Below the pieces are notes generated by a model. That model saw only the letters and a list, made by a program, of their open reading frames with translations. It was not told where the DNA came from and searched no databases. Shown here one piece after another: positions 10,793-60,708 of a stretch of DNA of 64,000 nucleotides. The stretch covers positions 15,493-79,492 of the forward strand of contig JBBHKE010000653.1 of assembly GCA_037447655.1 (NCBI GenBank), written 5' to 3'. Within the stretch, counting starts at the first letter, position 1; the number at the start of each line of letters is the position of its first letter. The translations under genes were made by a program, and so were the position numbers. The DNA is from Zygnema cylindricum. Taxonomy: Eukaryota; Streptophyta; Zygnematophyceae; Zygnematales; Zygnemataceae.

Positions 10793-14052
<3,260 letters not shown>

Positions 14053-17870: not shown

Positions 17871-17946
17871 GTGAGACTCGAATGTACGGCAGATTATAAC
17901 TAAAAACACAGCACTCTCCCTTACCGTAAATCGTACGGTAGACGCC

Positions 17947-17973
17947 ATGTGTACCATCGACAAGATGCTGTAG
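17947..17973 (+). promoter_or_regulatory. uORF 1, copy of the RAD50 N-terminus
   Basis: ATG to TAG encodes MCTIDKML, the same eight residues that begin RAD50 at 18151. If the transcript starts upstream of this point, it is a minimal uORF with the same start context as the real ATG, because both derive from the 102-bp repeat. Confidence 0.6.
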
Positions 17974-18048
17974 TGAGACTCGAATGTACGGCAGATTATA
18001 AATAAAAACACAACACTTTGTCTTACCGTAAATCGTACGGTAGGCGCC

Positions 18049-18075
18049 ATGTGTACCATCGACAAGATGCTGTAG
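18049..18075 (+). promoter_or_regulatory. uORF 2, copy of the RAD50 N-terminus
   Basis: The second MCTIDKML-stop frame lies exactly 102 bp after the first and 102 bp before the RAD50 ATG. It would affect RAD50 translation only if it lies within the mRNA leader, which cannot be told from sequence. Confidence 0.6.
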
Positions 18076-18150
18076 TGAGACTCGAATGTACGGCAGATTA
18101 AAAATAACAACACAACACTCTGTCTTACCGTAAATCGTACGGTAGACGCC

Positions 18151-21100
18151 ATGTGTACCATCGACAAGATGCTGATAAAGGGAATCCGGGCGTTCAGTCC
18201 GGATAATACAGCTGTCATCACTTTCTATCGACCGCTTACACTCATTGTCGGAGCTAATGGAGCAGGAAAAACGGTCAGTAAAACTGAAGCAGTAGAACTG
18301 AAGTAACAAAAATGAATCAGGAAAACTGAAGCAGGCAAATTGAAACAGTAAACTGAAGTAATAACACTGAAGTAATAAAACTGAAGCAGTAAAACTGAAG
18401 CATGAAAACTAGGAGTAGACAAGAATTATGCAGAAATTTGTTGCAGAAATTTGATTTTCTATGGCATCTCCTGGAACAAACAATAAGGAGATATGAAGTA
18501 AGAATGATGTAGGGACTGAACAGGAATTGACGGAAATTGGTGGATTGTAGATTAAATCTTTAAAGAATGGGGCACGAAAGGGGCGTTATTCCCATACTAT
18601 TTAATCTTGAAAGTGACAAAAACTTGAACAACCAAGTTAAATTGCTTGTTGATTGTTTTAAGTTTAATTGTTTGTTTGATTAAATTGCGTTAGCAAGTAT
18701 CACATTTTAACAACAATCATATATTTATTAATAAATGAATCAAAGATACATGAATTGTTCTAGTCTAAAACAAGAAGGAAAAATTAAATAAAGTTTGCGA
18801 GAAATGGAAATCAAATCAGAGAGGAGGAAATTTTAAATGCTTGTGGATAAGTTGTGAAACACGCGCATGGATGAAAATCACATGGATAAGCATGAATTAT
18901 TTAATAAATCAACGCATTCCTGAAAAGTTGTGAAATACGCCAGAATTTGCAAGAACAACGTTTTACATTTTCAAAAAAACTTTAGAAAACATGTAAGTGC
19001 ACAACTGAAGTTGTTTAGCAACTTTACATGCGAACCACGTGTAAATTATTTGCATGGGTAACAAAACTTCTTATGTTGTTTTATTCTTGGTTTGCAGACG
19101 ATCATCGAATGTCTGAAGCATGCTTGCACGGGCGAACTTCCTCCAAATGCGAAATCAGGACACACCTTCATTCATGATCCAAAGGTAGATTATTGTTTTC
19201 TAAACAATTAAACAATAAAAAACAACATAGTTTGTGTTTTTGTCTAGTGGTTTTTTTTTTGTTCTCTAGAGTTGAGTATCACAGACTTTGGGTTGACAAA
19301 ATTCTCATATCCATATTTGAAAAACGGTGATATCAAAATGTTTGCTTCTGTACATATTTTAGGTGGCTGGTGAGACTGAAGTGAAAGACAGATAAAACTA
19401 AGGTTTGAAACAGCTGCTGGAAAAGATGTGAAGATCTGGTATTCCTGTTTTAAAATGCTGATATAAGAATGTGTTTTTTTCCTTAATTTCAGGTTGCTGG
19501 TGAGACGGAAGTGAAAGGACAAATAAAGTTAAGGTTTAAAACAGCTGCTGGAAAAGATGTTGTTTGCATTCGCTCTTTTCAGTTGACACAGAAAGCGTCA
19601 AAAATGGAATACAAGGCCATAGAAAGTGTGCTTCAAACCATCAATTCAAACACCGGGGAGGTGAGTTTTTCAGGGGTCGTAGAGTGGGGCCAAACAGGCC
19701 AGACGGGTCATCGTATGACCCATATTAAATATTTGGGTGCTAAAGTAGGTTTATGATCTGGATGGTTAAAAATTGCCCAATCATCAGTCATGAAATGACC
19801 TGGAGAATTATTTTTTAGTGTTATATGTTGTAAGCTTGACCAAAAGCATTTCACTTCAATTACACATCAATAATGTCATTCTAATAATGTCTTCGATAAA
19901 GTTTGGTATGTTAAATAAGTATATAAATACATAAGATTGACATTTCTTGTCATAACTAGAACAAACAGAATAAAATTTGGTCCATCTGTGATTGCCTAGT
20001 TAAAAGTTGAGTGCGAGAATGTCAAGTTGATGCAATATAAAAGGCTTCAATAGGCTTAGCACAACTATCAACTCAACATTTGTGGATATATCTCACCTTT
20101 GCTTTTTTTTACCATTACATCCGCACTGTTATGTACGGTTATTGAGTATTGCACCATTATTTGCGGTTACTATGGTCAAATATCTGCATGGCTTGAGGTA
20201 CAGATTGTCTTCTTTTTGGAGATTTTTCCACTTACCTCACTTTTGTTTTTTATTGTTTGTTTGTTTGTTTATTTGTACTTGTATTTACTTTGTACACTCG
20301 TCAATTACTTTTTGTAATCCACTCCTTGATATTGCACCGCAAGCATGGTGAGGAGAGGGAGATGGATGGACTGAGTGATATGGAGTATAATGAAGGATCT
20401 AAAGTATGAAAGTGATAGACAAGTATGGAGGTTGTGACTTGTGTATTCATATCATGTTTTTTCGTTTTTTTTTTTTTTTTAATGTTTTTTCAGAAGGTTT
20501 GTCTCAGTTACCGATGTGCTGATATGGACAGAGAAGTACCAGCTCTTATGGGAGTATCCAAAGCGATTCTAGAAAATGTTATTTTTGTTCATCAAGATGA
20601 AGCCAACTGGCCTCTTGCAGAAGGGGCAATTTTGAAGAAAAAGTTTGACGATATATTTTCTGCGACAAGGTGAGTTATAATTTTTATATCATTAGTCAAA
20701 AAAACATCATTAAAAAAGGGGATGGTGAGGGTCAAATTTTAGAAGGTACAGATTGTCTCGTTCCTGCCAAGTTATGAGTTTATGCTGGATAGGGAGAAGA
20801 GAATTTTTGAGATTTTTGGTTTTCTTTTCAGGTACACAAAGGCTTTGGAGGTGATCAAAAAGCTTCACAAAGATCAAGCCCAACTGATTAAGGAGTACAA
20901 ACTAAAAATGGACCATTTGCAAACGTTAAAAGATGCAGCATATAGGGTGAGGACTGCGACTATAATAACTCTAGTAGAGTTAATAACTCTCAATTGGTTG
21001 TAGGTATTATTAGTCCTCAATCATAAAATTGTGTTACAATCGCTCTTTGAATAGATGACCCAAATGAACCGTGTTGTCGGACCACAATTTAATATAGTTA

Positions 21101-24100
21101 ATATTGCTAATAATTCACTAACCCGAATAGTGGTGAAAGGTGTAGCTTCTGATACTGTGACCTCTTTTTGATATTTTTTGTGCTTTTGATGTCGCATAGT
21201 TCAACGTCTGCTTTAATTTTTAAACTCTTAATATTAGCTTCTCTTGCAATTGTAGCGGTTGTTTTAAAATACATTCTTATTTCTATATGCATGGGAACTA
21301 AATTTTTCCCTTATTGCCTTTCCTTGGTTTTATTTCCCTCTTTTCCCCCCCTTTTTTTTTCGAACGCCTGGACAGCTCCAAGAAGGTATCGACGGTGACA
21401 AAGAGAAGGCCAACCATCTTAAATCTCAAATGCGACATTGGGAGGAAAAAGTTATCGATGCCCGGGAAAAGATATCGGAGGCAGAGATTGAATTGAAAAG
21501 GGTTCGTAATCTGCAAGATCAAATTAGAGTGAAGGAGGGACGTCGAGAAGTTTTGGTAAGGCTGAAAACGCAACAATATCGCGATTTGATGGTGGAAAAT
21601 GAGGGTGAGTAATTGAACTTTAACACAAAAAGTTTAACACACAAAACTTAACACACAAAGTTTAACACAAAGGACCAAGAGCAAATGGCAGCTGCGAACT
21701 TTGTTTCCCTATATACCTTGATTGACAACTTGACATGTTGTCAAATGCATTTAAGTCGTTTCGAGATTTTTTTTTCTTAAATAGCAAGCTGTTTGTTGTT
21801 GTAAATGGATCAGAAATAAACATTAATAGACAAATGATCTGTTGTTTATGATGTATTTACACTTGACAGATACGGATGAGGAGCTCTTGGAGTGGCAACA
21901 GAATTTTGAGAGTAGTCTCGGAACATTGAAGATGAATATAGCGAAAACTGAGAGAGATTTGAATGATGTGAAGACTCAAAATTTGGCAGAAAAAGAAAAT
22001 TACAACAAATGCTGTACGGTCAAAGGCAGGCTCCAAGCAGAAGCTGAGGTAACCCTTGTCTTTCATTACTTCTATTAAGAAAAAGTAACAATAATGAAAT
22101 GAATTGAATTGAGTTTTTTGCTTGAGCCTTATAGCAAGCGGTTTATGATGAGTTCAAATGTGTGAGAGTGGTGACAGTAATAGTCAGAATTTGTTGTTTT
22201 TCTTTTTGTTGCCAGACATGTTTTTCTGCCTAGCTATGTGTGATGTTTCGTTTCAAAGTTTTTAAGAAATGAAACTGTTACCTTACAAAATAGATAGGCA
22301 GTATATTGCCAGTTGAAGGCAATATTGATAATTGCAGAAATTAGGAGGGAATTTAGGCTTTTGTTTTCATCAATTAAAGGAATATACTAACATTAGGAAG
22401 TAGTCTCAAATTGTTGAACATTTTAATGTTTGAAAGGGATGAAAGACTTCCACTATATGTTGTTGGCCACTTAACCCAACTTTCATTGCATAGTGAGGAA
22501 ATTGGCGCGTGCGAGATGTACAACCGCGCTTAATTTCTTTACCAGATTGTTTTCTGTGTTTTTTTTCATATTCCTAGGCTCATATGAAGGACAAGAAGGA
22601 ACGAGATCTTTGTTTACAAGGATTATATGCAAAACATAACCTAGGAGAGGTGGGAGACTTGCCTTTGACTCATGACTCGGCCACAAAATGGACCAGGAGA
22701 GCCACCAAACGACTCGAGGAACTTCATCAAAACCTTACCCAGTTGCAGGTAATATATCTTGTCAACCTAAAGATCTGGAAGATATGATTATGATTTTCTC
22801 TTTTTCATTTATCTACCATCATTTTTTATTCAATTTTTATTCATTTTCTTGTGAATTTTTAGTCACTTTTTAGTCAATTTTTACTCATTTTTTCTTTGAG
22901 CACTTATTTTCTCAATTTACTCAGCAGGCTCTCCAACCTAGCCATGCATGCAAAGATAAACGGGGGAGGGGGAGGGGGGGGGGGGGGGGGGGGGGGGGAG
23001 GGGGGGGAGGGAGGGAGGTTTTAAACCATCTTCAACAAGAAAAGAATAAATGCAGGAGCCAGTTCGCTGGTCATCCAAAAATGTAGTGGATTATCGTTAA
23101 GGCTCAAATCTTATAATATGCATATTATTTCCACATTGAGTTTTGCAGTAGTTAAAAGTTAAACAGATTTAAAAGAGAAAAAAACGACAGATCATGCCAT
23201 ATGACAGTGATGGCGTAGAGACTTAGAACGCTTTTACTGTGAATCGTAATAGAGTTAATAACGCTATATATGCGCGGGTATGTATTGGCCTCTGACCATA
23301 AAATAGTGTTAATAGTAAAAAAATTCCCTTGATAGCACTAATTTCATAAGTGGCTGCTTATCGTCCACGACATCTGCAGTTAAATTACAATTGGTAACGC
23401 TAAAATAATTCCCACTCTAGTTACTTTTCTACTAATTATTAATGGTTCAATTGATGTTTTTTCAGTGTCATTGATAAGATCTCTCAGCAACCAAGCTGTT
23501 TGCCAAGTTCGAAAAAGTTGTATGTGTACTGAAAATAAAAATGGCTATCAAAATTAAATCTTTTCAAAAAATTAGAAATGGCTATCAAATTAGAAAACTT
23601 GTCAGAAACTTCATATTTTGAAAAATGGCTATCAAAGTGAGAAATTAAAATCAGATACTTCATGTCATGAGGAATGGCTTTCGGGTTAAACTTTTCAGAA
23701 AAGTGGCTATCAATAATCTTTCTTTCAGAAACTTCACAATGAGAAGTGGCTATTGTAATTTTTCATTCAGAAACCACATATAATGAGACTATCCGGGGTT
23801 CTAGTCTTTTGCAGTCAGCCAACAGGGCAGAGCACCAGAGTTTGACCGGAGCGAGAGAAACTGCCCAAGCAAAGTTGGTTGAGGCAACTGGGCATATCAA
23901 GCTTCTTGTGAACCAGAAAGTAAGACAATCTTCATTTTTTTTTCCTTCTTCTTTTTTTGCTCGGCTCGAAATGAATTTTTTTGTCAACTGCCCAAGAAAA
24001 GCTGGTTGAGGCAACTGAGCATATTAAGCTTCTTGTGAACCAGAAAGTAAGGTAATTTTCATTTATTTGCTTCGCTTCATAATGAAGTTTGTTGTTGATT

Positions 24101-27100
24101 GTGGCTGCCGTGAGGCTGTCGATGGTTTTTTTTGGGTTTAAAGGCAACTGGGCATATGATTTATATGCTTCTTGTGAAGCATCAGCTCAGTTAATTTTCA
24201 TTTATTTTCGCTGCTCAAAGAGGAAATGTTGTTGCTTTTCCTTGTGGTTGTCATGAGACTATCGATGGTTTTTGGGTTTAAAACTTTTTTTCTTAGGCTC
24301 ATAAAACAGTTATTTGTTGGACCAGTTCGCTGTTTTTTAGAAAAGTCGGAACTGCTTCCTTTTTTTTTTTGGAGGAGGATTCAGAAGGATGGTTTGCCGC
24401 TTTTTTTGTGTACTTTGTTTGAGAAGACAAGAATGTAAGTATCTCATTTCCTGTTGAGTTTGGTTTTCTGCAGAAAGATTTGCAGAACGAGGCTCAAGTT
24501 CTTGAGACTGCAGTGGAGTCATTGGCTGTTTCTGAAGCAGATGTGATGAGAGTGGAAGAAACGGAAAAGTCAACGGTGAAGTCTCCTTATCATCATTTCT
24601 TGTAGTTAAATATGACTTGAAGATTTTATAGCCTGTGATTTGTTTTTTTCCATGAGATATTGGTTAACCAAAAGATGAGAAACATAAGCTTGTTCTTAAT
24701 CTTTAGTAGCCATATTTGGTGTTTTTTATTTATTTTGCTGAGGGTAAATGTCTCTTCTCTTTTTCATTTTCCATTATTGTATTTCTCGGGCTTTTTGCCA
24801 TCATGGTGGTGTTTATTTGATAAGAGAGAAGAACTTCACTTATCATTGGTTGACAGAATGTTTTTTGTTTAGATAAGAGAGGACAGCTTGCCATCGGTTG
24901 TTGGGAAAAAATAATGTTGTTTGTTTAAATAAGAGGGCATGGGTTGTTGGGAGAACAGAAGGAGGCAACTGATTCTGTGGCTGTAAAACTTCGAGAAAAG
25001 CAATATGATACACAGATTGATGAAGCGAAGGCAGATTTGTACAAACTGGAACAAAAGATAAAAAATTTACAGCGAGAGAAAGATGGACTTGCTGCCGAGT
25101 CAGGAGAGAGAGTCTCACTTCGAATGAAAAAGGAAGCATTGAATGCAAAAGAAAGCTCGATGAACAAATTGTAAGTTTTATTTTTTATTTTTATTTCTTT
25201 TCCATCTGAAGGTTTATTTATTTTTTGATGATTTCTGTCAGTAGTCTTTTATTCATTTTTTCATTGTTTGGATCTGAGAAATTGTTTTAGCCTTTTTTTG
25301 GTTTCTATATGTACGTTATTGTTATGCATACACTTTCACATCCCGCCGTTTGTTCAAGGACCTTTTTAATACACTTTTTGAGCTCCATCTGTGCAATTGA
25401 TTCACCTGTCAGTGCATGTAAACCATCCAATTATTTTACTTGTCACAAGACCTTGATTTTTTGCTTTTGCTGTGATAGCTTTTTTGTGTATAGGCCAACG
25501 AGGACCGTGGGCCTTTTTTTGCAATTGTTTGTTTTTTAATTAAAGCATGTTCTTTTGATTGATTCACATTGCTACATTTTTATGACCTGATGGGAGTGTT
25601 TTGTCGTTTGGAACCTTCAGGCTAGATGATAATAAAGAGAAGTTAAGGAAGTCGTTGGGAGGAAGGCTACCTGAGAAGAGAACGTTGTTAAAGGGGATTG
25701 AAAAGGTCGTGAGGTGAGCTAAATCCAATATCTCCTCTTCTCAAAAATTGTAGGGTTTTCAGTGGATAGAAATAAACAATAAAAGTTGATATGCTTCAAA
25801 GCAATGCTTAACAAAAAGAAAGAAATGGTCATGCTGACAAAAGCAGAAAACAAAGAATATCGTTGGAAAACAACATAGTTTGAAGATAATCAAAACAAAT
25901 CTGAGAAAAAGTGACACTATGTACAGAGCATAGGCAGTACTCACAAACAAGTTAAGGCTTAGAAAGCAAAAATCGAGCTTTTTAGACTTTCGAAACGCCA
26001 ATGCTCGGAGAATAATGAATATCCTCTACCCAAATGAATGATTTTTTAGTTTTGAAAGAAAGTTAGTCCTACCGCAATCGTACTAGAGGTTGCCTTTGTG
26101 TTCAAGGGTGATTTTTATTTGATAGTATATTGCGTGTGTTGTTTTTTTCTTTATATATCTGGAGCAAATCACGATTGCTAAGTATGAAGTCGTGCTTTTT
26201 GAACATTCTGCAAAAGTTGCGTGCCTCGGCCGTAACTCCGGTTCTTATTGAGAGATAGGTGAAGAAGCTACTAGTTATATCCCTTTGCATTCGGGATGAA
26301 AAATGTAAGACATGTTCAGCTTTTATTCTCTTCACTTATATTCGTAAGTTCTCTTTTGGTGAAATTTGCAGTACAAATAATAATTTATATCAAGACTTGG
26401 ACAGTCAAGCGAAAAAGACAGGACAAGATGTTGCAGCTCTCACTATGCGACTGCAGGACGCTCGAAATGATCTGGCTTTCAAGAAACGGGATCGTGACAG
26501 TATGTGCCAAATCCCTTTCTCAATTGTTCGAAATTTAGGAACATTTTGGGTGTGCTTTTTTTCTTTTCTGCTTTGATTAAAGCAAACAAGAAAAGGAAGT
26601 GAGAACGGAAAGGAAAGAAGAGGGAGGCAGAGAGAGGATGAATAACAAAGAGAGTCGGGAAAGAAGTAACAAACCAGGAAAGCAGAGATAGGGGAGAAGA
26701 GAGGTGAAAAGAGAGAGTAAACTTTCAGCATACAGGAAATACAAGGCGTAGAAGAAGAGTTCTTGTTATGGAGGGATGGCAGGTTATAAATAAATGAAAG
26801 TCAAGCCAATGAAATCTTTGAGTGATGAAGTAGTTTTTACCGGGTTTATTTTTGTCATTTTTGGACAAAGCTTTCACCTATCCTTGGTTTTCTTGCCTTT
26901 AGAAGGCAATTTAGCTATTCATTCACATTAAAACGGATACAAATCCGGTAAGAGTTTTTGTTTTCAATCCATTGTCGAACTCGTTACGGTGACATGTTAT
27001 ACTATTGAAGGCACAAAACGACAAAGCATTCCAGCTTTGCCAACGATTTTATTCATTTGTTATTGTTGTGTTTGTTAATGTTGTGTTTGTTAATGTTGTG

Positions 27101-30100
27101 TTTGTTAATGTTGTGTTTGTACAGCGAAACGACGATTTCTTTCGGATCGACTTTTTGCAACTGTGCAAAAGCAGGTGGAGGCTGACGCATTGGAAGAGCA
27201 GTTAGCATCAGCCACAAAGGCTATGGAAGGAAAGAAAAGGTGATTTTAGTTCCCTCTCCCTCTCCCTCTCCCTCTTGGCAGGAGAGGATGTTGCTTTTCT
27301 AATCGTTTGCAATCTGAAGTCCTTGGAAGGAAAGATAAGTAGGTCAGGTTATGCAAGGGAAATTGCTGTGTTTGGTTCAATTTTCGACCATTTCGTTGGC
27401 TTGATAGTATGGAGGGGAGAGGGATGAGGAAGAAGGAGAGGGAGAGGGGAGGGAGAGAACTAAACTGGAGCATGTTGTTGTGGCAGAGAACATGATATTT
27501 TGGATGGAATGCGTCGCTGTTTCAGTCGCTTTATGGAATTGGCTCAATCGGATCAGGAATGCCCCGTGTGTGAACGCCCGTTTCAAACACCACAAGAGGT
27601 CGATTCGTTTGTGCAGAAGGTCTGTCCCATATTTGAGTTGGTCTCATTTTTTCCCTTTATCCCCCTCTTGCACCTTCTTCTTTTCTTCTTTGGTATTGTT
27701 GGTTATGAGCAAATTTTAAACACCACAGGACGTCGATTTGTTTCTGCAGAAGGTCTGTCACATATTTGAATTGATTTATTTTTTCTCCCTCTTTCCCCCT
27801 TCTGCCCTTTGTTTTTTCTTCTTTCGGTTATCGAGCAAATTCACATGTTGGTTGATCGTGATATTGATATATTAATACATGGATTCATCTAGTTGTGAAA
27901 AAATCGAAAACCCGGTCAATTTGTTTGTATATGGTCCATGCTATTCTAATTTAAGCAACACGATTTACGTTTGACTATTTTATGCAAGGTTATCATATGC
28001 CAGAAACTAAATTTTTTGTGCTTAGAAAATGACGATAAACCATTGGTCTTTTTGCAGCAAAGGATAAAGCAGAGCGAATCAGCCGATAAGCTCCGAATCG
28101 CAGCTTCTCAGCAGTTGGAAATGGAAGCTCGAACCAAAGCTTTGGATCAGTTAAGACCCATTTTTCTTGAATACAACAAACTGGCGAAAGAAGGCATTCC
28201 AGCGGCAGAACGGAACGTTGCAGAAGTCGAGGATTCTCTGCAAAAAGCGACAGAAAATCATGATGATGTGAGGGGTTTCAGAATCTTCGCATCCTCTCCC
28301 TTCTTCCTCTTCCCCCTTCTCCCGTCTTCTCCTCGTTTTGTTGGTTGGTAAAATGGGCTGTCGGTTGAATGGATTTCACGCATACTGTCGTTTATCTTCA
28401 CAGTTGCTATTTTTGCTTATGTGTCTTTTTCACTTTTTGTGATGGTTTTTTTCCCATGTTACGCGGTTCTTGTGAGCTCTTTCTGGATCTCACTCTCACC
28501 CTTATCCAGATTCCTAGTTTCGATACTTTTTTAGAAGGTATTTAAAGATATAATTTATGGATTTTGGTTTAACTTACTTTTTGCCTCTGTCTCCATTTGA
28601 AACCCTTCTTGAAGTCGTATTTTCTTTTTTGTATAGAAATCCGTAGTAGTGCCTAAAAACTTCTGTTAAAAACATTGTATACCATATGTTTTGCAGTTAC
28701 TAGGACTTTTGGGCGAAATGAAAAACGATCATGATGAGGTGAAACGACTGGAATCAATTTCCAAAGAAATTGATAGGCTTTGGAGGGAGACAGAGGCCTT
28801 GCAAAAAGAAGTGGAGGATGGAGAATACAAACTGGACGTTATGTCACAGGGATTAAGAACAATGACAGATGTAAATTCGGAGCTTACAAGCCTTGAAGAG
28901 AAACGGTTAGCATATTTCTTTCTGTTTTTTTTTTTTTTTTTTTTTTATTTTTTTTTTTTTTATTCTTTTTTTTTTTTAATCTCCTTAATTTACGACAGCT
29001 TTTGGTTGTTTTTCCACGCATGAATCTGTAAGCCTGTCTACACTACTGAAATCTCAGGGTGTTGGTTGTTGACCAAGAATTAGACCATTTCGAATTGTGC
29101 AAATCTCGGTCAAATATCGAGAGAGTTTCACCAGACTGCGGATATGCTATGTGAATTATGGGTCAAACAACTACATTATCAGTTTCGTTGAAAGAGGTCT
29201 GTGTGTTTTTGTAGGACAGAATTCCTCTTATTACTTTTCTTTAATTTTTAAATAAGGTCTTAAGGTTGTTGTATCACGATATTTTCTCTGTCATTAAGGT
29301 TTTTGAATGCATAAATTGTTTTTTGACAGGGATGATATGACACGAAAAATTGAAAAACTTCGAGATGAACAACAGTACATGAAAGACGACTTCACATCGT
29401 GGAACATGAGATGGCGAAATGCGAGAGAAGAAAAAATGAATATGGCGAATCGGTTGACTAAACTGAAGGACACGAGAGCAAGTGCGAAAAAGATAACGGA
29501 GCAGCTGAGACATGTGGATATCGACATGCAGGTGAATGAGATACTTGTTTCTCTTGTGTGATAAAAATTATTAATATCAAATCATGTTTTTTTTTTGCTG
29601 TATATCAGGGTCAATACTACACCCTCCATTGCTGTTGGAGTTAATAGTGTTATTTCGGTTGAATGTTTTTTGACTCAAAATCGTAAAATAGCCCTGGTAA
29701 CTCTAACTAGAGGAGCGGATAGCTGGCACGATCTCAGGTTACTCAATAGGTGTGTCATTCTTTTGAAGTTACTTCTACAATTTTGTGAACTTTTTTGTTT
29801 TTTGTTGGAAGTACATGGACAGATTGGTATTTATTTCATGTTCTTAGGTTTGATTGGTACTTCAGTTAGTTGGAAGTTGGAAATTAGGGGTCGAAAGTGG
29901 TCTGAAGTTGTGATTCAAAGAAAGAATTTTTAATTTATGAATTGCATTTAAAGCTGGTTGCAAGAGGGACCCAATGGCGGATAATGGGGGATGTGATTTT
30001 TTATGAAGGGTCGTAACTGGTCTCATGTTTCCAAAAATGAAAATGACAGATGTGGGAGCAGAAATTAGAACCACTTCGGAAAGAAGTAGAGAAGCTTCAA

Positions 30101-42560: not shown

Positions 42561-42641
42561 TTTACTTGTGCTGATTGCTGCCAGGATTTTGAAGCTGTGA
42601 GGTCTCTCTTCTCTTCTATCTCTCTTCACAAAATAATAAGA

Positions 42642-46429: not shown

Positions 46430-46563
46430 GCACGAAGAAACTCGTCCAAAGCCACACCTAAACGACTAAGCATTTTGACCGCGATCGGAATAAAGCCATT
46501 CGTATCATTTCGGTGGGCATAATCATGCTCTTTTTTCGTTGCCGCGTCACGGCTGTCCACTCC
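46430..46563 (-). pseudogene. Inverted nuclease-domain remnant (unit 2)
   Basis: The minus strand reads MDSRDAATKKEHDYAHRNDT then NGFIPIAVKMLSRLGVALDE, the better-preserved twin of 38500-38645, in an open frame 46216-46560. Confidence 0.5.
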
Positions 46564-47030
46564 AACATGTTGAGCCGCTTGACTAACGATTGTTGTGTCA
46601 ATTACACTAACTTTGGAAAGTTATTAACTAGTGTACGAAATATGCCAGTTAGTACTAAAATTGCTCATTATTTTGTATAAACATACAAAAATGAGTGAAG
46701 TAATGGCATCGAGACGGGGAAAGTGGCGTTGACATTAGAAAGCGCACTCAGATTTGTTGTTCTAGTAATAAAGTCTGGGGGAAATCTAACGAGCTTGTTC
46801 TCACATGTTCAAACGTCGACTATGTGAATCCATGCTATAGCAACTACATTTGTGTATCCAAATTGGTGTTAGGTGTATAAATCAGCGTTGATGATTTGTT
46901 CGCATTAGGCCCCTGAACCCAAAATAGAGTTAATCACACCACTTAGTTTTAGAAGAATTTTTTTATTATCAAAACAACGATGGTTAACATCAAAGTATAA
47001 AACATGATTGAAATGAAAAATTGTTCACCA

Positions 47031-47544
47031 CACCGCAAATCGCTATTAGAGTTAAGAAATAATTAGTGTAAAGAAACTATTTGTGTTATTAACTCTATTT
47101 TTCGTTCAATGGCCTAACGCCAGAAAAAATGAACGCTAATTTATACACCTAATAGTAATTTGGATACACATTCCCATATTGTAACCGCGATAATCTGTGT
47201 TCACATATTCGGTACTTGAACATGTGAAAACGGGTTCTTGCAATTTTTCCTCGTCTTTATGATTGGGAATCGAATATGAGCGCCCTTTTCCGTGGCGTCG
47301 CACTCAATTTCCCGCGTCAACGCCTTTATCTGACACTTATTCTGTACATTTCTACGAGATAATGAGCAATTTTATAGCACGTAAAAACATTTCGTACATT
47401 GCACTATTTAAAAAGTGTTGAAATTAGAGTAACTAATGCTAATGTAGCAGTACTTATATTAGTGTGAAAAAAATAATTTATCCATTCTATTGAGGTTCAG
47501 AATCAGAATTTGGGGGCGCCGAACACTAATAGCGATTCTCGGTG
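47031..47544. mobile_element. MITE-like element, CACCGTG-TIR family (unit 2)
   Basis: The ends CACCGCAAATCGCTATTAGA and ...CTAATAGCGATTCTCGGTG; duplicate of 39087-39599. Confidence 0.6.
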
Positions 47545-49479: not shown

Positions 49480-49650
49480 TTTTACTTGCACTTTCACTGA
49501 CACTTGCACTTGTACTTGTACTTGTAGTTCTAATTTACTTACACTTTTACTTTACTTACACTTGCACCTGCACTTGCACTTTTAATTTACTGACACTTTT
49601 ACTTTGCTTACACTTAAACTTACATTTACACTTTTACTTTACTTACACTT
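49480..49650 (+). repeat. (TTACACTT)n-type minisatellite before translocator exon 1
   Basis: ACACTT-based tandem words end about 80 bp before the ATG. This copy has a different length and order from 42411-42560, so the array changed after the duplication while the adjacent exon did not. Confidence 0.85.
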
Positions 49651-49731
49651 TTTACTTGTGCTGATTGCTGCCAGGATTTTGAAGCTGTGAGGTCTCTCTT
49701 CTCTTCTATCTCTCTTCACAAAATAATAAGA

Positions 49732-52700
49732 ATGGCTTCCATTGCGTCTCGTCAGCTTCCAGGACTTACAAACAGTGTATTTAAAGGCTCATCAGCACCA
49801 TTCTCAACTTCTACGAAACCTAAAGTAACGGGACAATTGATTTCTCTGCAAAAATCTTCCATTCCGAGAAATTTTTTGAACTTACAAGCCTCCACAAGTC
49901 TCCATTGTTCATTTTTGGATGACCGTTCCCAAGCTTCAAGGAGACTTCAAAAACAAGCTTCGTTGAGCTTGTTAAATGAACAATGCAATGGAAGGTCAAA
50001 AAAGTCTCCAATCACATGCATGGCCGTGTCCGGTGAACTGGAGGGTGGAGCTGGTGAGGAAAAGCCACAGCTTGGGTGAGAATATCTTTTTGACTCCTTT
50101 TACCGATCTGCATTGTACTTTAATGCATCTTTTTCTGAACGTTGTACCTCTACACTGCCCATGGCTGTGTGTCAATAACACTAGTTCAATTGTGACTTTT
50201 TGTTTGCCTAAAATCATTAAGTACTCTTTATAACAATGCTTAAGGAAGTGGTTTTAAATCAGCCACGTCACTCTGCCCTATGTTAGTATTATTGATACTA
50301 ATGTCGTTTTAATACTAATTATTCCTTTACTCTAATAGCGATGGGTAGTGTTGTAAGAGGGACCGTTAGTTTTGAATGAAGACCTGGAGCTTTGTAGAGC
50401 TTCCTGTAGAGAAGTGAGTGAATCTTCTCTATTGGTTACCATTGTCATTAATGTAAATATTTTTCTGGCAGTCAAAAAGGCGTTTAACTTTGTTGTCAAC
50501 CGCTGTTTTTTTTTCCTTAGGAGGGCAAGGTATCTGTCTTACCATTCTGTCGTGATGTCGCGATAAAAAATCGGAAAAGTGTGTAGCGGGCAAAACTATT
50601 TGACTGCCTGAAAAATGTTTAACACTAATAGCTATGGGCAGTGTAGCTTAGAAATTTGCAGGTTGCGGAGATGAGTCAAAACTTTCTGCTCTACCTTTTT
50701 TGTTTTGTGTACAATGTTCTTGTTTTTTGGGTTATGTATTTTATTTAGGAGCACTAATTGAAATTAAGGGACTTTTAGCATTAGTTCAATTTTCTTTTCT
50801 GGTCTGTATTTTGTATGTCATCATATTCTTGGTCAAAAAATGTTTGGTCTCCAAATAATTGTTAACAATGGAGAAAGAAAACTTGATTTAATTCTTCTTT
50901 TGGTCTGCAAATTATTGTCAACAATGGAGAAATAAAACTGGTTCCGTTTCTTCTTTTGGTCCACAGACTACTGTTTGTATACTGCTCTGTAGAAGAAGCA
51001 ATAACTTTGAGTTCGTAAAAAGGTGTCATAAGATCACATATTCTGCTGCTCAACAGTAAATGTTGTTTGTTTTTTTTCCGGTATATTTTATGCTTATCTA
51101 TTTTATGCTGGTATAGGTTTTGTTGTTATTTTTTACGTCCTTATACTTTTACTCGGTAAAAATCACAAGTTTTCGGCCTTCAATGGCATAAATTCAGCAT
51201 TCAACATTGTTCGACACAGACTTTTCTGTTAAGCTTAGTGTATTTCCTCAGTCTATTTGTTTATAACTGCTGTCAATTACCCTTTTTCACCCCCTTCCCT
51301 CTCCCCTTTTCTGTTTATTACTGTCTGTTAATCACACTTTTTTACCCTCTTCCTTTTTTTTGTTTATTGCCAAGTTTTCTGATGATCTCAGTAGGAGAGG
51401 GCTAAGTGTAAGTTACAGGTTTTTGCGATTTCTACATTTTCTGGTCAGCACTGGAGAGATGAAATGAATTTGATATATATATGCATAAACCTTAGTAAGT
51501 GTATCTATGTCCAGTTAACTTCATCATTCATTTGTATACGCGTATGTTTAGCACTTAGTTCTGAGGCTAAACATTTTAGGGGAAAAGTACTCTTACCGTT
51601 GGGTCCGTTTATTGTGTGAATAGACGTGGGAACGCTTAAACTCAGATGGGAAGAGTTTTTTCAATTTCCCACAATATGCATTATAATGTGTATGTAATTA
51701 ATATATGTTATTGTATGCATATTCGTATTCAATAACGAGGAGATTTCTCAAACTACACTAGCCACCGCTCTTTAGTGTTGATAACACTAATTTGCTCGCG
51801 ACTCTTTTTTGGTTGAAAATCATAAACTATTGTATTAACACTATTCAAGGGAATGGAATACAATTTGCAGCGTCTCCCTACACTTAATTGGTGTACTGTA
51901 ACATCCACCCTGATGAATTGTGGAGCTGTTCAATAATTGTATTTTGGCATTTTAGTTATTGAACTTTTCTAGGCTGACTTTTGCGGGATTTGAACCGCAG
52001 TCCAGTATTTCTGAGAATTCGATCTATGATAGAGGTGATTGGGTTCATTGTGCATAGGACTTGCGCTTGAAGCTTGTCGTCAGTATTTTGCATCAATTTG
52101 TTGGTTTTTTGGTTTTGTGTACTTTTCAAAGTTTATGAACTGTTAGCTTCAAACACTATTAAAGTATTTCAACTAACAATTCATTAGGCTAATCCCGACT
52201 TATTTTCAGTTCATAGGGGTGGATGTTACGGTAGTGCATTCTAAATCTCTAATTATTCCTTTAATAGGGATGGGAATTGTAATGAGGGCATATATACTGC
52301 TTGGAAGACAAATATTATAATAGTTTTTTTGTGATGTAAAAGGGTCAATTTTGGCCAGTTTTGTTGCAATTTGGACATATTATGGTGTTTGAGTTGGAGG
52401 CAGTTGGAGGCATGAAATTTCAAAAGCTTATTCCAAGAAAACTCATTTACTCATTTAAACCATGTTTTCCTATGCAATTACTCAAAAAAATATTTATGGT
52501 TTTTCGGTGGATTCAGGTTTTTGGCCACTGCCCCTACCAAATACGCCACATTGACTACAGGATTCTTCTTCTTCATGTGGTACACTGTCAAATTAACTTT
52601 TTTCACCCCTTGTCCCTCTCCCACTTTTTTTTTGTTAGTCTGTCAAGTACCCTTTCCTCTCTTCCGTTTTTTGTCGTCTGCCAATTACCCTTGTGCACCC

Positions 52701-55700
52701 CTCTTCCCTCTCTCCCTGTCTTAGTTTGTTATTCTGTCAATTACCGTTTTCCACCCCTACTCTCTCTCCCTTTCTTTATTACTACTACTTTGAACCCCAC
52801 TTCCCCTCCCCCCCCTTTTTCTTTATCAGCAGATTTTATGTCTTACATTATATAAACTGGAATGTAGTTGTGGTATCAATTTCAATAGTAAGTTTATCTA
52901 TTGATTTGTTTTTCATTTGTAGATTAACAGAGGAAGGGATGGAGGGAGGGAAGGAGAAAAAGAGGGAGGTAGAGAAAGGGGGGAGGGAAAGAGAGGGCGA
53001 GGGAGAGAGAGGGCGAGGGAGGAAGAGAGGGGAGGGGGGAGGGGGAGGGGGGGGGAGAGCAAGAATCTTATGTTATGTAACAGATATGTGCTTTTTGTTA
53101 GAACATTAATGCTCGTTTTTTTTCTATATACTTGATTTGTTCTTTTTCTATATACTTGTACAATTTTTCATCGACTATACCACCTTCAAAAAGATGTGTT
53201 TTAGCCCAAATGGTCCCCCGCCCTCCCCCCTTCCCGCCTCCCTCTCCTTGTTTAGATATTTTCATTCATCAAGTGCGTTTGGAACATCTTTTGTAGCATC
53301 TTTTTATTTGTTTGTTTTTTTGCTCTAATATTGATGTAGACTTGAATGATGGAATGTATGTAATTGTACAACTGCTGTCGAAATTTAAACTTGAAAATAA
53401 AACGCTTTGGATAAGACTTCTTGAGTGAATCAACGATGAATTATTGAATGGTTTTGTTCACATTTTGAGACGGACTTTGTTTTCTCCTTGAACTATTTGT
53501 GACCTGTTAATAATTATCAATACCAGGAATTGCTGAAACACATTTTCTTGCTTCTTGTGTCTTATTCAAAGAAAATATTAGTTTCTCATATAGACATTGT
53601 TTGAGTTAGAAACAATTAACGTTTGTACTCTGTCTCTTTTTGATGTCTCACATTTGTTGGCGTATCAGCAGCTACAAGAGCAGTGAGGATGTCTTGTTGA
53701 GTTGGCTTTTTGCAGGTACTTTTTGAATGTGATCTTCAACATTTTGAACAAGAAAATTTATAACTACTTTCCTTATCCTTAGTAAGTTACTGTTTGTGGC
53801 ATTCCCCTCTCTCTCCCCCCTCTCTCTCTCTATCTCTCCCTCTCTCTCCCTCTCCTCTCTCTCTCTCTCTTTCCCTTTCTCCCCTCTCTCCCTTTCTATC
53901 TCCCGTCTCTCTCTTCCCCCCTCACTCTCGTCGCCTCTCTCTCTCCTTCTCGCTCTCTATGTCCCCCCTCTCTCAGCATCTGTGCTCCGTCCACCAATAT
54001 ATATATATTTTAGGCTGTTGACTGCTGATCTTGGTTGCTGAGGCTGTGAATTGAACTCCTCTGTACATGTCTGAGAGAATCAATCTGTATTTTTGAGGTA
54101 ATGCTTTTAAAAAAAATTCACCAGGACAACTGCGCCGTGAATCGCTATTAGCGTTAATAACACTAATTCAGTGCTGCTTTTCCTTGCCCTCGGACCACAA
54201 AATACCGTTTAAAATATTTAATTTTTACCTCTAATTCTTTAAGTGGTTCAAAATCGGCCACATCTTTCAGAACTGAATTAGAATAAAAACTCTAAAATAA
54301 GCCCTGCAACTCCCATCCACACATTTTTCCTGCTCTGTCTCTGCAACTCTCAACTACACATTTATCATTCACAGAAATTCTCGGTTTATCACAAAGGCAC
54401 CATCGATCAACCTTTTTTTAAATTATAAGCATAATGTCCACATGGCAATTTTTAATCTCTTGGTATTGTGGCTCAATCTTTTCTCAAAAGTCTCTTTTCA
54501 AACTTCCTATCCTCTCTCCAGTAATCCTCTCTCTAGTGATTCACTCTCTAGTAATCCTCCAGTGTCTCTCCAGTCATCCTCTCTCCATAGTTCTCTCTCT
54601 AGTCATCCTCTCTCCAGTATCCCCTCTCAAGTCATCCTCTCTCCAGTTATCCTCTCTCCAGTTAATCCCTCCCAGTTTAGTACTCAGACTTTGAAAAGTG
54701 CCAATTTTTTCTTCGCAAATCAATAATCTAAATTGATTTCTTTGTTCTTCGCAAATCAATAATCTAAATTGATTTCTTTGCCCAAGCGGCAATGTTTCCA
54801 CATATTGAGGGTTAAAAGGTTGCGACGTTTTATGCAGTTTTGTTTCTGCTATTCATCTTGTTGTTGGAGTTGGATACTGTGCTATTTCCTGGGCATTTGG
54901 GTTACCCAAACGAGCGGTAAACTACTGGTTCATTTTCACTCCACTCATCTTCAATGTAGTTTATGCAGGGACTAAATATGTTTTGTTTGTCACGTATATG
55001 GTTATATATTTTATGTTGCTGTCACATTCGTGTCATGTCGTCATGTGACTTCAGTTGTCATGTGACCGAGATGTTCATTCTATTCGTTGACTGCCACTCA
55101 GTGATGTGTTGCCTAACAGTGATCTCACTTATTTCATTATTTATTTTCTTATTTATTTCTTTCTTTCTTCTTGTAGTCACTAAACTGCACATTTGCTCTG
55201 AAATCAACAATTGTTTCATGTTTAGCCGCCCTCTATAATGCAGTGTGTGATGGATCAGTTCAGATTCTGTCATGGATGCTATATAAACGTTTATGGGATT
55301 TCACAAGAGAAAAGTCTGTCTGGCAGTTTATTGTTTATTTATGGCAGCTGTTCACAAAAAGCTTTTGGAATGCTAAAAAAAGTGATTATCTGAGTTTTCT
55401 CGTTAATTGGAATGACGAAGTATTTAGCTTCTTGGTAGTTGGAATCCTATAAAAACGTGACCAAGTGTTTGAGTTTTCGTGTTATTTGGAAGCCTGAAAG
55501 AAAGTGTAGAAGAATTTGAGTTTTCGTATTATTTGGAATCCTAAAAAAAGTGAGCAAGAATCTAAATTTTCTTGTTATTTGGAATGCTAGAAAAAAGTGA
55601 CCAAGTATTTGAGTTTCCTGTTTTTACAGCCGATCGACAAGGAATTATGGCTCCTTCTTTTGCCCGTGGCAGCCTGTCATGCCCTCGGCCACGTTATGAC

Positions 55701-58700
55701 CAATGTGTCATTTGCTGCCGTTGCAGTCTCATTTACCCACACTATTAAAGGTAGGCCTTTTAGTCTCATTTACCCACAATATTAAAGCTAAGCCTTCTCA
55801 TTCTCATTTACCCAAATTTATTTAAGGGTACGCGCAGTCTCATTTACTCACATTATTGAAGGTAAAGTTTTTCCGTCCCATTATCGTTGAGGTGATGACG
55901 GGATGAAGTTCAATATGGTTTCCAAATACATTCCCCAAGAACGCTTAAAAAAAAAAAAAAATCTGTTACCTCCAAATTGCAGAATAAAATTGTCTTTTTA
56001 AAAAAACATGTCCTTTTGATATAATTTTCCTTAATTGCGAAGGGTAGATACGATCTCCTACCTGACCTTGTAATGTTGTGAGTATGATCTTAGAGCCCCA
56101 TGCTGGTGCTGCTTTCTCTCAAATAATATTTTGTAGAAGTATTATAAGTTGGACTAAATATGACTAAGTCGCAGCAGATAATGAAAGCAGCTACTTTGCT
56201 CATCACTATTAGTGTAATGAAATTGTTATTGTAAATGCGGAATTAAAATGTATAATACTAATATATTCCAGGGAGACGTGGCGACTTAGTGTGATTAACA
56301 CTATTTTGTATTTTTTGTTGAAAAAAGCCGTGACCAAAATACGTCATTAACAGTTGTAGCAATGGGCAGTGTACTTGTGGGATTTGTGATTTTGTTATGC
56401 AAATAATTAATTCTTACGCAGGTGACACAGGCAGAAATATGATGCAATACATTGCCAGATATTCGTACAATTCTCGAGCTTTCAAAATATTTTGGTAGTT
56501 TCATATTTCTAGACACTGAAGCAAAGGGTAAATTTTGCATGCATGAAAATAAGTACAAAAATAAATGTACAAAACACTCAATTACACAATAGGGTGATTG
56601 AGCGATTTTCGTCCTTACTGATCCAGGTCTTTTGTGGTTTTGTGACCTGCGTAGCTCTTGAGCCATTCTTCAGTGCGGCAGCTTCCCAGTTTCTGATGGG
56701 TCAAAGTGTTTCCTTCCCTCTGTGGCTCTCATTGACCCCAGTGGTTCTGGGTAAGTCACAATTATTCCACTTTTTTGCCGATACTCCATGCTGTTAGCGA
56801 GGGTGCTTAAAAATCTTGGCTATTGCACAAATCAACACTGAAATCCTTTTGAGTCCTGATTTACTCTCTATTGACTCCCTCCTCTCCTTCCCCTCATCAT
56901 CTCATCATCATAAATCCTCCTCATCTCCTAAAATAAAATAAATAATCGTAAATAAAATATCAATAAATAAAATAAATTTCATCAGTAAAAATAAATAATC
57001 ATGCTCATAAAATAAAATAAAATAAAATAAATAAAATAAATAAAGTAAATAAATCATCCTAAAATAAATATCGTAAATAAAATGCGTCGTAAAATAAATT
57101 CATCGTAAATAAAATAAAATAATAATGTTCCCCTCCCCCCCCCTTCCCCCCCCCCTCCCCCCCTTCCCTCCATCCATTTCCATTCCATCTCTCCTTCATT
57201 CCTTCCTTCCTCCATTTCCTTCCTTCCTTCCTCCTTCCTCTTTCTTGGTCAGTCACATCGTTGAGGCTGAACATTATTAGGCCATTGCTGGGGCATTATT
57301 GCTTTTTCGGAATATATTTACGTTAGTGTGGGTAAATCATTTATTCGTGGTAAAAAGTGTACAATTTGTACATATTTATGTACACTAACTATTCTTATCC
57401 ACAGTCGCATAACTAAATACCGGTATGTAATTTCCCTATGGCAAATTACTTCATTTGTCCATATGAACACAAGTAGCTTGGGAGCATGAGTTTTTGGGGA
57501 TGCCTTAAAATTCTGCGACTTTTTTGTATTGCATTTGTTGCCTTTATTTATCAGCTTTATTCGAGAACGCTAACGAAAGAGGAAGACAGTAATATGCGTA
57601 TGGATTCTGGTTCTAGAGGGTCTCCCTGATTTCAAGCAAAATTCATGAGAAATGGAAAAAAAATAGGAAATCATTCGAATCACATGTGATCAATTCCCTG
57701 AATGACGTTTTTTATTGCCTGTGTAACATTGCTTTACAGGTGGGCATGGACTCCACCAACGTTTATGCCTACATTTCCATCTTGTCACTTCTATTCTGTA
57801 TTCCTCCTGCTCTCATTGTATGTGACCTCCCCTAAAAACCTTTATTAATCCAAAAAAACTCTTAATAAACTCTGCTATATGTGATTTTCACCCCACCTGT
57901 CCTTGCATTAGGCGAATTAAAATAACTTATGAACTTTATTACCGGACAAAGTAGTTTTAGAGCTTTGCAATTCTCCTTTGTAATATAAAACACTGCCGTG
58001 TTTAGAGTAAAGAATTTTTCAGCGTGGCGTATATATATATTAATGTTATTAATTCTAATTCAATTCCAAATGACGCGGCTGACTCTTAACCGTTAAGAAA
58101 AAAACAATATGTCTTCCATACTATTTTAGATCCAAGGGGTGATCCAAGGGGTGGAATGTCGGGGCATGGCCTTGTGTCATTGATGCAATTAACAATACAT
58201 GGTGTAGATTCTGGTCAAAATTGTAATATTCCTGTGAAAAATGCTTGATGTGAGACACCAATCATCGCTATTCAAATTTACACACATAATTCGGTTGTGT
58301 GATTTTTTCACTCAATATCCTTATGTTAATATCACTTTTTGAAGGAGTTGACAACATGCTTTCGTGTCACCCTGCCATATATCAGTATTATTGGGCTAGT
58401 TTAATCTCAATGCTACTGATTCTTTTATTCTCATATGGCTAAAGCTGTTTTTTCCAAATTAAGGCAGTAATTTGGCGTATTTTTTCTTTTGAATCACAAA
58501 CAAAAATATCAGCGTAAATCAAATTCAACTTCTGGTATAAGATACGTCACTCTGTATTTAAATCTAAATTTTAATTTTAGTTTTTCATAATATTACTTGA
58601 TGCTCCAGTTGCAATAAGTGATGTCCTTTCCATGTTCATGTTCCTTTCTTCTCTTCTTTTCTTTTCCTTTCCTCTCCTGTCCACCCTTTCCTTTTTTCCC

Positions 58701-60708
58701 CTTCTCTTTTGTTTTGTTCTCTTCCCCTTCCCTTCCTTCCTTTCCTTTCCTTTCTGTTCCTTTTTCTCTTATCCCGTATTTTTGTTGTTCTTTAAACTCT
58801 TTGTGCCGTACTGCAGATTGAAGGCCCTGCTTTAGTCCAATACGGCTTCAAAGATGCCATTGCAAAAGTGGGATTGACCAAGTTTCTTACCGACCTCTTT
58901 TGGGTTGGAATGTTTTATCACCTCTACAATCAGGTAACTCCACTGTTAATCGCTACTTGTGTTAAGGAATATATAGCATTGGGTTTATTTTAAAGTTGTT
59001 GTTTCTAATTTAGGACTGGGCGATGTGGACAATTTTCAACCGCTTATTGAATTAGCATGAAGAATTAAACAATGAGTATTATTAACGCTGTTTATGTTTG
59101 AGGCGCAAAATCCTGCACCAAATTAGTGTTATTTTTGCTAATAACAATTCAGTGTACATTTCTCATAGCACCCAGTTTTGTTTTCTCCCGTTAATGCATT
59201 TGTATCTCCTAGTCCTCATGAGAATGTTATTTCTTCAGATGGTTCCTTCCATGGCCACTCCCGACATTTGGTTTGGTAGTGGGGCTGTCTTGGAGTTTCG
59301 ACCCTTATGAAAAATAGGTGTTGCATATGGGGACTTATTGATTGTGCTTGTTATTGCTTTAGTAGTTTTCACTGTATGTCGATTTCTTAAAATTTATTTT
59401 GTGAAAATTGCCATTTTGACGCTTTTAAATGAGTTGTTTTCTAGAAGTCCCCATTTTGACGTTTTGAGATAAGTTCTCCTTTAAATGCTGCCCATTTTGA
59501 CGTTTTGAAACGACTTGTTTTCTGAGAGTTTTGACGTTTTTCTGCAGTTGGCGACAAACACTTTGGAACGAGTTTCTCCCCTCACACATGCGGTTGGAAA
59601 TGTTCTAAAACGTGTATTCGTTATCGGTTTCTCCATTATTGTTTTCGGTACTTACCATATCCCCACCAAACCATATCAATGCATAAGTTATTAAAAAATC
59701 TACAAGCATTCTTTTGTGGGTCTCGTTTTTGCTTAAACGAGATGCAAACCATATTCTTTTTCACCCATATGATTACGCTGGCCCCACTATTTATGTTTAA
59801 CATTTTATTTTTTCCACGTTACTATCCTGTGAATTGAGGACCTTTTCCACACTTTCCAGTTTACCTGCATCTATATTCTTGCATACACGACCCTTGCTTC
59901 TGTTGTTATTATTAATGATATTGCGTTTACACCACTTTCAATTTTTTTGTGTATCTTTTATTAATTTATCATTAACTTATCATTGTTGATAGTGTGTTAG
60001 CACCACCTTATGATTGTGTTTAATGGGAGCATTGAACATCAAACTAAGCATGTGACTTCGTTGGTATGAACTAAACATGTGACATCGTTTGTATCAGTAA
60101 CGTTGTTGGTATCAACGGAACATCGCTGGTATTAACTAAACATGTGATATTGTTGGTACCAACTAAACACGTGACAATGTTGTTATCAATTAATATGTGA
60201 CATTTGTTGGTATTAACTAAACTTGAAATCTGTGACATTGTTGGTATTTAGGAAACAAAATTTCGACGCAAACTGGTATTGGAACCATGATCGCTATTGG
60301 TGGTGTGGCGCTCTACTCCTATCTCAAAGCTCTCGAAGAAGAAAAGGTGAGTTTCTTCTGCAATTTTGGAACCTTGACAGAAAATATTGCAGTCATCTAT
60401 GATCAGGAAGATTGTTCAAATGTATGGGAAAACAACAGAAACACTTTATGGGGTTATCCAATGCTAAACGTTTATTATACTGTATAATATGCATAATGGG
60501 ATAACCACATATAGCGTTTCCAATTTTTGTCACGCATTTGAACTGTTGTCACAAACTATTCCATTGTTTGGTTGGTAAATGTAGTGGTTGTCGTGATTGT
60601 TGTTGTTATTTTTCCTCATTTTATTGTTTTTATTTTTTTGTGGTATTACCGATGTTCAATTTCACTTTCACTTCTTTTCTTTTGCAGAAAAAGAAAAAGG
60701 CAGTATAA
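49732..60708 (+). CDS. TPT: Plastid triose-phosphate/phosphate translocator (one exon not found)
   Basis: Exons found: 49732-50075, 52517-52579, 53716-53781, 54838-54916, 55630-55750, 56655-56750, 57740-57817, 58817-58933, 59548-59647, 60252-60346 and 60688-60708. The protein exchanges stromal triose phosphate for cytosolic phosphate across the inner chloroplast envelope. Exon 1 is a Ser/Thr/Arg-rich transit peptide. Then come [200 protein letters not shown] and a Lys-rich tail. The ~38-residue segment with FNWxGF and FTYRSIYSKKAM, expected between 56750 and 57740, is absent, and joining the flanking exons breaks the frame. The start is the ATG at 49732. GLPKRA with [10 protein letters not shown] favours TPT over the PPT or GPT paralogues. 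Confidence 0.93.
52580..52800 (+). repeat. Array at the translocator exon 2 donor
   Basis: About four diverged ~50-bp units, CTGTCAATTACCCTTTTTCA then CCCCTTCCCTCTCCC, start at the exon 2 donor (TG|GTACACTGTCAAATTAAC). Two more units lie upstream in intron 1 (about 51270-51350). Confidence 0.7.
54509..54782 (+). repeat. Two short tandem arrays in translocator intron 3
   Basis: First, about ten degenerate copies of TCATCCTCTCTCCAG (54509-54670), each with a CAG. Then a perfect 36-bp unit starting CTTCGCAAATCAATAATC, present twice (54711-54746 and 54747-54782). Exon 4 follows at 54838. Confidence 0.85.
55355..55629 (+). repeat. ~55-bp array ending at the translocator exon 5 acceptor
   Basis: About five units TTTGAGTTTTCGTGTTATTT then GGAATCCTAAAAAAAGTGA run to the acceptor (TTTTTACAG, exon from 55630). 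Confidence 0.8.
55731..55870 (+). repeat. ~40-bp repeat x4 across the translocator exon 5 donor
   Basis: The exon end CTCATTTACCCACACTATTA|AAG and donor GGTAGGCC recur at about 55774, 55811 and 55845 as CTCATTTACCCACAATATTA, CTCATTTACCCAAATTTATT and CTCATTTACTCACATTATTG. The last is followed by AAGGTAAAG, a good alternative donor. Confidence 0.85.
56880..57240. repeat. AAATA/AAATAA repeat and C-rich tract where an exon is missing
   Basis: A run of AAATAAAATAAA-like units (56930-57125) is followed by a C-rich then TTCC-rich block (57126-57240). It occupies much of the 989-bp interval that should contain the missing translocator exon. Confidence 0.85.
59404..59547 (+). repeat. ~45-bp array ending at the translocator exon 10 acceptor
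   Basis: Four units with CCCATTTTGACGTTTTGA and AGTTGTTTTCT-like spacers; the last copy, GAGAGTTTTGACGTTTTTCT then GCAG, forms the acceptor (59548 onward is coding). Confidence 0.8.
60030..60251 (+). repeat. ~30-bp array ending at the translocator exon 11 acceptor
   Basis: About seven units ACTAAACATGTGACATTGTT then GGTATCA; the last reads GTGACATTGTTGGTATTTAG and forms the acceptor of the exon starting at 60252. Confidence 0.85.

Follow-up and report, generated by a model that had tools for sequence, protein, structure and literature searches.

Introduction

Tandem arrays that lie within introns are known as intronic minisatellites, and the 14-57-bp arrays of the algal locus described here resemble them in probably growing by slippage, but differ in that some units contain an exon edge and a donor. 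According to the available text of PMC2812944, human segmental-duplication genes carry internal tandem repeats at exon-intron boundaries, where they are kept or spliced out, and also within exons; these repeats vary between recent paralogues, form novel introns and often give alternative transcripts. In the potato RdRp gene, a tandem duplication across an intron-exon boundary made a new intron (PMC4974935, available part), and tandem genomic duplication counts among the accepted ways in which introns are gained (PMC3443670, available part). Under the model of Rogers (1989), as described in the available part of PMC4974935, a duplicated exonic AGGT becomes the new intron.

The window analysed here, the whole stretch of 64,000 nucleotides, is most likely nuclear DNA of a zygnematophyte alga. 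It resembles the human case, as far as PMC2812944 describes it in the text available, in having tandem repeats that lie across exon-intron boundaries: a repeat physically overlaps the boundary at 8 of 78 splice junctions, and at none in 20 shuffled rounds. Unlike the human repeats in that account, the algal copies lie next to splice sites that are in use, and the analysis identified no new intron. The potato duplication likewise spans an intron-exon boundary; that gene, in the part of PMC4974935 available, gained a new intron, whereas the algal spare copy appears absorbed into an existing one. The intron-gain model, as set out in the available parts of PMC4974935 and PMC3443670, is alike in that duplication generates extra splice sites, but the duplicated exonic AGGT that the first of these sources needs as a new intron was not seen in the window; in a comparison that covered the positions of the copies and the RAD50 protein, the copies lie within introns and none adds to the coding sequence of RAD50. 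Literature searches covered tandem duplication, the gain of introns, exon-intron boundaries, duplicated splice sites and the genomes of zygnematophytes; among the papers listed, none reported a comparable junction bias. The view of the original prediction that no named system matches is too strong in the light of the human boundary repeats and the potato duplication, at least as the available parts of PMC2812944 and PMC4974935 present them. The process at work in the window is a known one, here at unusually high density; what seems new is this density, together with the decoy sites and the part of the junction excess that is left over.

Genes in the window

Three gene models, those of ETFB, RAD50 and a chloroplast triose-phosphate translocator (TPT), were drawn up manually, with open frames and GT-AG boundaries as guides:

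10793-14052 (+), ETFB gene, five exons (10793-10861, 11250-11576, 12057-12137, 12939-13033, 13827-14052), open frame with GT-AG boundaries
18151-35412 (+), RAD50, 27 exons and 26 introns, product of 1315 aa
49732-60346 (+), TPT, 10 exons located

The ETFB product is approximately 60% identical to plant and algal ETFB; its gene precedes position 17871, where the range given for the original prediction began. The RAD50 protein is identical to its best database match, P0001 (likewise 1315 aa), at 1178/1315 positions with zero gaps. In a midpoint-rooted tree of 22 RAD50 proteins, the window protein adjoins P0001, the nearest to both being a pair made up of a Closterium protein and one further protein (support 0.997), and P0003 is sister to the window/P0001/Closterium group. 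The locus name of P0003 carries 'SM', and we take the genome that encodes P0003 and P0242 to be Spirogloea. Judging by locus names, ETFB (P0242) and RAD50 (P0003) lie about 3 kb apart on one scaffold there, ETFB on the strand opposite to RAD50; in the window both are on the same strand (10793-35412).

RAD50 devotes 13,314 bp to introns versus 3,948 bp to exons, and tandem arrays occupy 1,868 of the intron bases. The 3' end of TPT, past 60346, was not located, and a conserved TPT exon (approximately 37 aa in relatives) was not found in 56750-57740 among the matches listed in tblastn with four relatives; this may reflect an assembly gap, loss or a very diverged exon. At the window edge, open frames at 63043-63857 on the minus strand resemble the C-terminal part of pyruvate kinase and presumably belong to a further gene.

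Tandem copies at start codons and splice junctions

Tandem copies accompany two of the three start codons (ETFB and RAD50), and the array upstream of TPT ends approximately 70 nt 5' of its ATG. The arrays and duplications at start codons and at RAD50 junctions are as follows:

10405-10794 (+), 27-bp degenerate array ending on the ETFB start codon (ATG 10793), in two TRF blocks (10405-10617 and 10631-10794)
17868-18174 (+), 102-bp unit in three copies over the RAD50 5' leader, the ATG and 24 nt of coding sequence (eight codons)
18276-18454 (+), RAD50 donor 1, 14-bp array from the third base of intron 1 (TRF 2-3-5 scoring draws its start at 18256)
19321-19560 (+), RAD50 acceptor 3, 130-131-bp duplication across the junction (copies 19321-19429 and 19452-19560)
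21616-21671 (+), RAD50 donor 6, 14-bp array 11 nt past the donor
23859-24282 (+), RAD50 donor 9, 127-bp duplication across the junction and a further decayed copy at lag 266
27056-27120 (+), RAD50 acceptor 14, 15-bp array ending 4 nt before exon 14
27581-27828 (+), RAD50 donor 15, 133-bp duplication across the junction, 39 nt of exon copied
30326-30624 (+), RAD50 acceptor 20, 147-151-bp duplication across the junction, 59 nt of exon copied
30874-31269 (+), RAD50 donor 20 (GGAGGCTGAG/GTAAGATG), three copies with lags of 42 and 94, then a decayed GA-rich array
32703-32856 (+), RAD50 acceptor 23, 20-bp array ending 5 nt before exon 23
34472-34644 (+), RAD50 acceptor 26, 82-84-bp duplication across the junction, 35 nt of exon copied
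34731-35098 (+), RAD50 donor 26, 27/57-bp array across the junction, its unit holding GACGAACA/GTAAGTGA; five further junction copies aligned

The two upstream copies of the RAD50 start (17947-18150) each encode a short uORF that mimics the real N-terminus and then stops, which could affect translation.

Arrays at the TPT junctions, and two that lie away from junctions, are these:

52591-52829 (+), TPT donor 2, array of 94-bp period beginning 11 nt past the donor
55413-55625 (+), TPT acceptor 5, 93/47-bp array ending 4 nt before exon 5
55717-55882 (+), TPT donor 5, 37-bp array across the junction that includes 34 nt of exon, its aligned copy reading CT instead of GT
59411-59527 (+), 40-bp array ending 20 nt before the TPT exon at 59548, taken as exon 10 of the original prediction
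60038-60230 (+), 27-bp array ending 21 nt before the TPT exon at 60252, taken as its exon 11
54509-54676 and 54705-54780 (+), two arrays away from junctions

Further arrays away from junctions lie at 11836-11965, 23532-23682, 50843-50974, 51061-51150 and 53083-53158. Seven of the 20 intron arrays are found elsewhere than at junctions, and the original prediction had already pointed to 54509-54782 as such a place, where two arrays are indeed present within 54509-54780. Tandem units in the window range from approximately 14 bp to 8.3 kb, the largest belonging to a direct duplication:

35479-50841 (+), large direct tandem duplication running from the 3' flank of RAD50 to within TPT intron 1 (copies 35479-43751, 8.3 kb, and 43748-50841, 7.1 kb)

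Its two copies have AAAT (4 bp) in common at the join; identity is 89-98% in the long BLAST pieces and 100% in the final 1.2 kb. The duplication contains a second TPT exon 1 at 42642, identical at 344/344 positions and with the same donor. Selection on both copies of this exon was considered and rejected because all differences in the right-hand 1.3-kb piece of the duplication are confined to 49530-49651, the other 1.2 kb being identical throughout.

Of 18 junctions named as carrying an array or a copy, 17 proved to be spanned by one or to have one within 25 nt (TRF, local alignment). At the remaining one, RAD50 acceptor 9, no array was found at the junction, the TRF array ending 132 nt short; RAD50 donor 9 (127-bp lag), a strong case, was absent from that list. 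The repeats do not sit 'exactly' on the junctions, as had been stated: the eight exon-containing copies cross them by 8-68 nt, and the remaining splice-site arrays of the list leave a gap of 2-21 nt. The splice site itself was considered as the last unit of the arrays that stop short, and this was rejected, the extension of the unit through the site being mostly no better than at 38 other introns; the closest cases were the TPT acceptor at 60252 (3/38 controls as good) and TPT donor 2 (5/38). The units had also been described as unrelated between loci and as the product of a local process rather than one repeat family, and self-BLAST (1e-8, dust on, matches of at least 40 nt) bears this out, with units private to each locus and no two different arrays joined outside the large duplication. 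The related unit at several loci that would mark a transposon-like or introner element was not found by blastn (1e-8, at least 40 nt), the copies of the large duplication aside. As a whole, the observation largely holds and is partly confirmed, and the interpretation put on it is partly supported.

Proposed local duplication followed by a selection filter

Local alignment of each junction against its own intron revealed the exon-containing copies at RAD50 acceptors 3, 20 and 26, RAD50 donors 9, 15, 20 and 26, and TPT donor 5, whereas base-shuffled introns gave zero in the 20 rounds. An ungapped lag scan marked the identical set of 8/78 junctions, seven of them in RAD50.

We propose, with a probability of roughly 0.62, that these junction copies are explained by frequent local tandem duplication followed by a selection filter. 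Local tandem duplication would be frequent in the genome of this alga. A duplication within an exon would break the protein unless its length were a multiple of three, and one within an intron would be neutral. A duplication straddling a donor, an acceptor or a start codon would be nearly neutral at any length, because the copy beside the intact exon would still supply a working site and the same mRNA. The spare copy would remain in the intron (or in the leader) and later decay, and some spare copies would expand into arrays by slippage. What we infer here is neutrality, the order in which the events took place and growth by slippage; the protein suggests that splicing uses the site nearest the exon. 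None of the copies contributes to the coding sequence of RAD50, since the 1315-aa product aligns with P0001 without gaps.

Several observations accord with this filter model. The nearest copies lie 130, 127, 133, 151, 42, 82, 56 and 37 nt from the used site, and 42 is the only multiple of three, so unit length is free at the boundaries (7/8 lags are non-multiples) and, in coding sequence, keeps to multiples of three (arrays of 15, 15 and 21 bp). The coding arrays are two strong ones in a 365-aa open frame, a putative gene (16204-16375, period 21, and 16608-16727, period 15), and one of period 15 in an ETFB exon; weak TRF matches with periods 13, 19 and 21 (score 50-62), in or at the edge of RAD50 exons, were taken as chance. 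The crossing units include 8-68 nt of exon, equivalent to 29-92% of the unit, which is consistent with random placement (KS p=0.21, n=8; the eight exonic shares were entered manually from the edges given by TRF and BLAST). Tandem duplication is at work outside junctions too, and the two copies of the large one share 4 bp at their join. The filter model would thereby explain the existence of boundary-crossing copies and why they are seldom in frame. If splicing lets such duplications survive, introns can lengthen from their edges, and strong, apparently unused splice sites can accumulate beside the used ones. At eight junctions in the window, splice sites that compete naturally are available for study, and RNA could show directly which are used.

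Excess of arrays at junctions

The filter model falls short in number. Arrays were called with TRF (match 2, mismatch 3, indel 5, score at least 80, period at least 9, entropy at least 1.5), and in the null each was free to slide in its own intron and into an exon by less than one unit. Thirteen of the 20 intron arrays lay on or within 25 nt of a junction, versus 5.9 expected (p=0.0002); placement is therefore not uniform over the tolerated positions, and the claim that arrays occur at junctions more often than uniform placement would give stands for this window. Other cut-offs gave p=0.007 (5 nt), p=0.015 (10 nt) and p=0.005 (50 nt), and sliding only the intronic parts within introns lowered the expectation to 2.9. 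RAD50 alone had 8/9 junction arrays versus 4.2 expected (p=0.005), and TPT alone 5/10 versus 1.5 (p=0.008). Among the arrays that do not enter an exon, 6/13 were near one, versus 1.5 expected (p=0.0009). When the gene structure was shifted along the gene, 8 to 17 matches were observed versus 2.2 to 6.3 expected over six settings (p<0.0002 to 0.0034); in this test ETFB showed no junction excess, and TPT alone under stricter TRF scoring was not significant (p=0.055 to 0.15). Stricter scoring with the own-intron null retained the excess (p=0.002 to 0.026).

The crossing class taken alone showed no excess under stricter TRF scoring (4 observed vs 2.1 to 3.3 expected), and 6 to 10 versus 2.9 to 4.9 under looser scoring (p=0.003 to 0.064). 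Judged by unit length, 9/22 duplications crossed a junction versus 3.2 expected (p=0.001), in a list assembled by hand from TRF and BLAST that includes two BLAST-only events; RAD50 contributed 8/11 versus 2.4, and TPT 1/10 versus 0.77 (p=0.56). The entropy filter removed the array at RAD50 acceptor 14 (27056-27120) from the counts, though it favours the finding, and the array at RAD50 donor 1 (18256) is a doubtful crossing case, without which the count is 12/19 (p=0.0006). All these p-values are optimistic, because the hypothesis was raised on the same single window.

Over the 20 nt at either end of the introns, repeat coverage compared with rotation showed no junction peak (9 vs 7.97, p=0.41), the per-base coverage at junctions being similar to that of the nearby intron. 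We think that this per-base test is low in power, as each array fills much of its intron; the lack of a peak is evidence against sharp anchoring. The junction excess over the filter model is significant in the window and only partly explained, approximately 6 of 20 arrays being predicted at junctions and 13 seen. A constrained exon copy may keep a pair recognisable for longer and so account for part of the remainder. Compared informally, the TRF percent match looks alike for crossing (56-81), near (65-83) and interior (63-97) arrays, so that there is no obvious role for constrained copies staying detectable longer. The rest of the excess is either small-sample luck or a real bias.

Alternative explanations

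Such a bias might lie in the duplication mechanism itself, directed to exon-intron boundaries, for example by difficulties in replication or transcription at changes of base composition or by R-loops at the boundary, and hidden by splicing. The junction odds, approximately sevenfold those of uniform placement (13/20; the compatible range has its lower end between 2 and 3 and its upper end near 20), the presence of the excess in both RAD50 and TPT, and the proximity to exons of arrays that lie outside them all argue for it. We nevertheless consider it unlikely, given a single window with 20 arrays that also raised the hypothesis, exonic breakpoints spread over 8-68 nt with no coverage peak at the junctions, units that are unrelated between arrays, and the loss of significance for TPT alone under stricter TRF scoring. 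It is doubtful that duplication is targeted to boundaries and start codons in this algal lineage, with about sevenfold odds over tolerated random placement. Were it so, introns would grow from their edges, and about one in ten splice junctions would have its splice site duplicated nearby, the additional copy often being a strong decoy; a confirmed boundary excess would point to an unknown duplication bias.

Selection might instead preserve the copies, either as reserve splice sites or because unproductive alternative splicing at them reduces expression; the original prediction had named selection for junction-anchored duplications as a possibility. Each copy was scored against 39 real sites of its kind, and several decoys score like real sites. 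At RAD50 donor 20 both copies are identical to the used site, as is the copy at donor 15; at acceptor 20 the decoy scores 11.0 versus 7.8 for the used acceptor, and at acceptor 26 the copy scores 7.9 versus 6.9. The donor 9 copy scores 7.9 versus 7.3 for the used site, a second copy there having CT, and at donor 26 one of five copies is identical to the used site and four score lower. On the other hand, the acceptor 3 copy (2.0 vs 8.1) ranks with the lowest-scoring real acceptors, and at TPT donor 5 the GT of the copy is gone. Identity of the junction copies across the aligned junction is 82-97% (mean 561/630), and GT or AG is kept in 12/14 aligned copies, even though an alignment was required to include the junction. 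That identity alone predicts approximately 11 of 14, so the decoys show no sign of selection, and conservation of the decoy sites was rejected on this count. With 7 of the 8 nearest copies also out of frame, selection for the copies appears quite improbable.

That the pattern is chance and selective reading, or an assembly artefact, is in our judgement more improbable still. The hypothesis is post hoc, the rotation test is not significant, and the 100% identical 1.2-kb end of the large duplication could be an assembly effect; but the junction copies, at the identities given above, and the arrays, with TRF matches of 56-97, are mostly too diverged for assembly duplicates, shuffles give zero junction copies, and several nulls agree. 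Least credible is the idea that introns were once gained by tandem duplication and left the boundary-crossing duplications behind: their type matches the potato gene as the available part of PMC4974935 describes it, but the absence of an identified new intron and the position of the copies within introns, beside modelled exon edges, speak weakly against it.

Other repeats in the window

An ETFB intron contains a 272-bp AT-dinucleotide array (12520-12791), the longest period-2 array among the matches listed, with TC and GA tracts nearby. A dispersed element of approximately 230 bp is present in three copies that are about 80% identical (9096-9325, 9638-9884 and 17382-17606). Each copy matches its own reverse complement at approximately 70%, and the element looks like a small inverted-repeat transposon.
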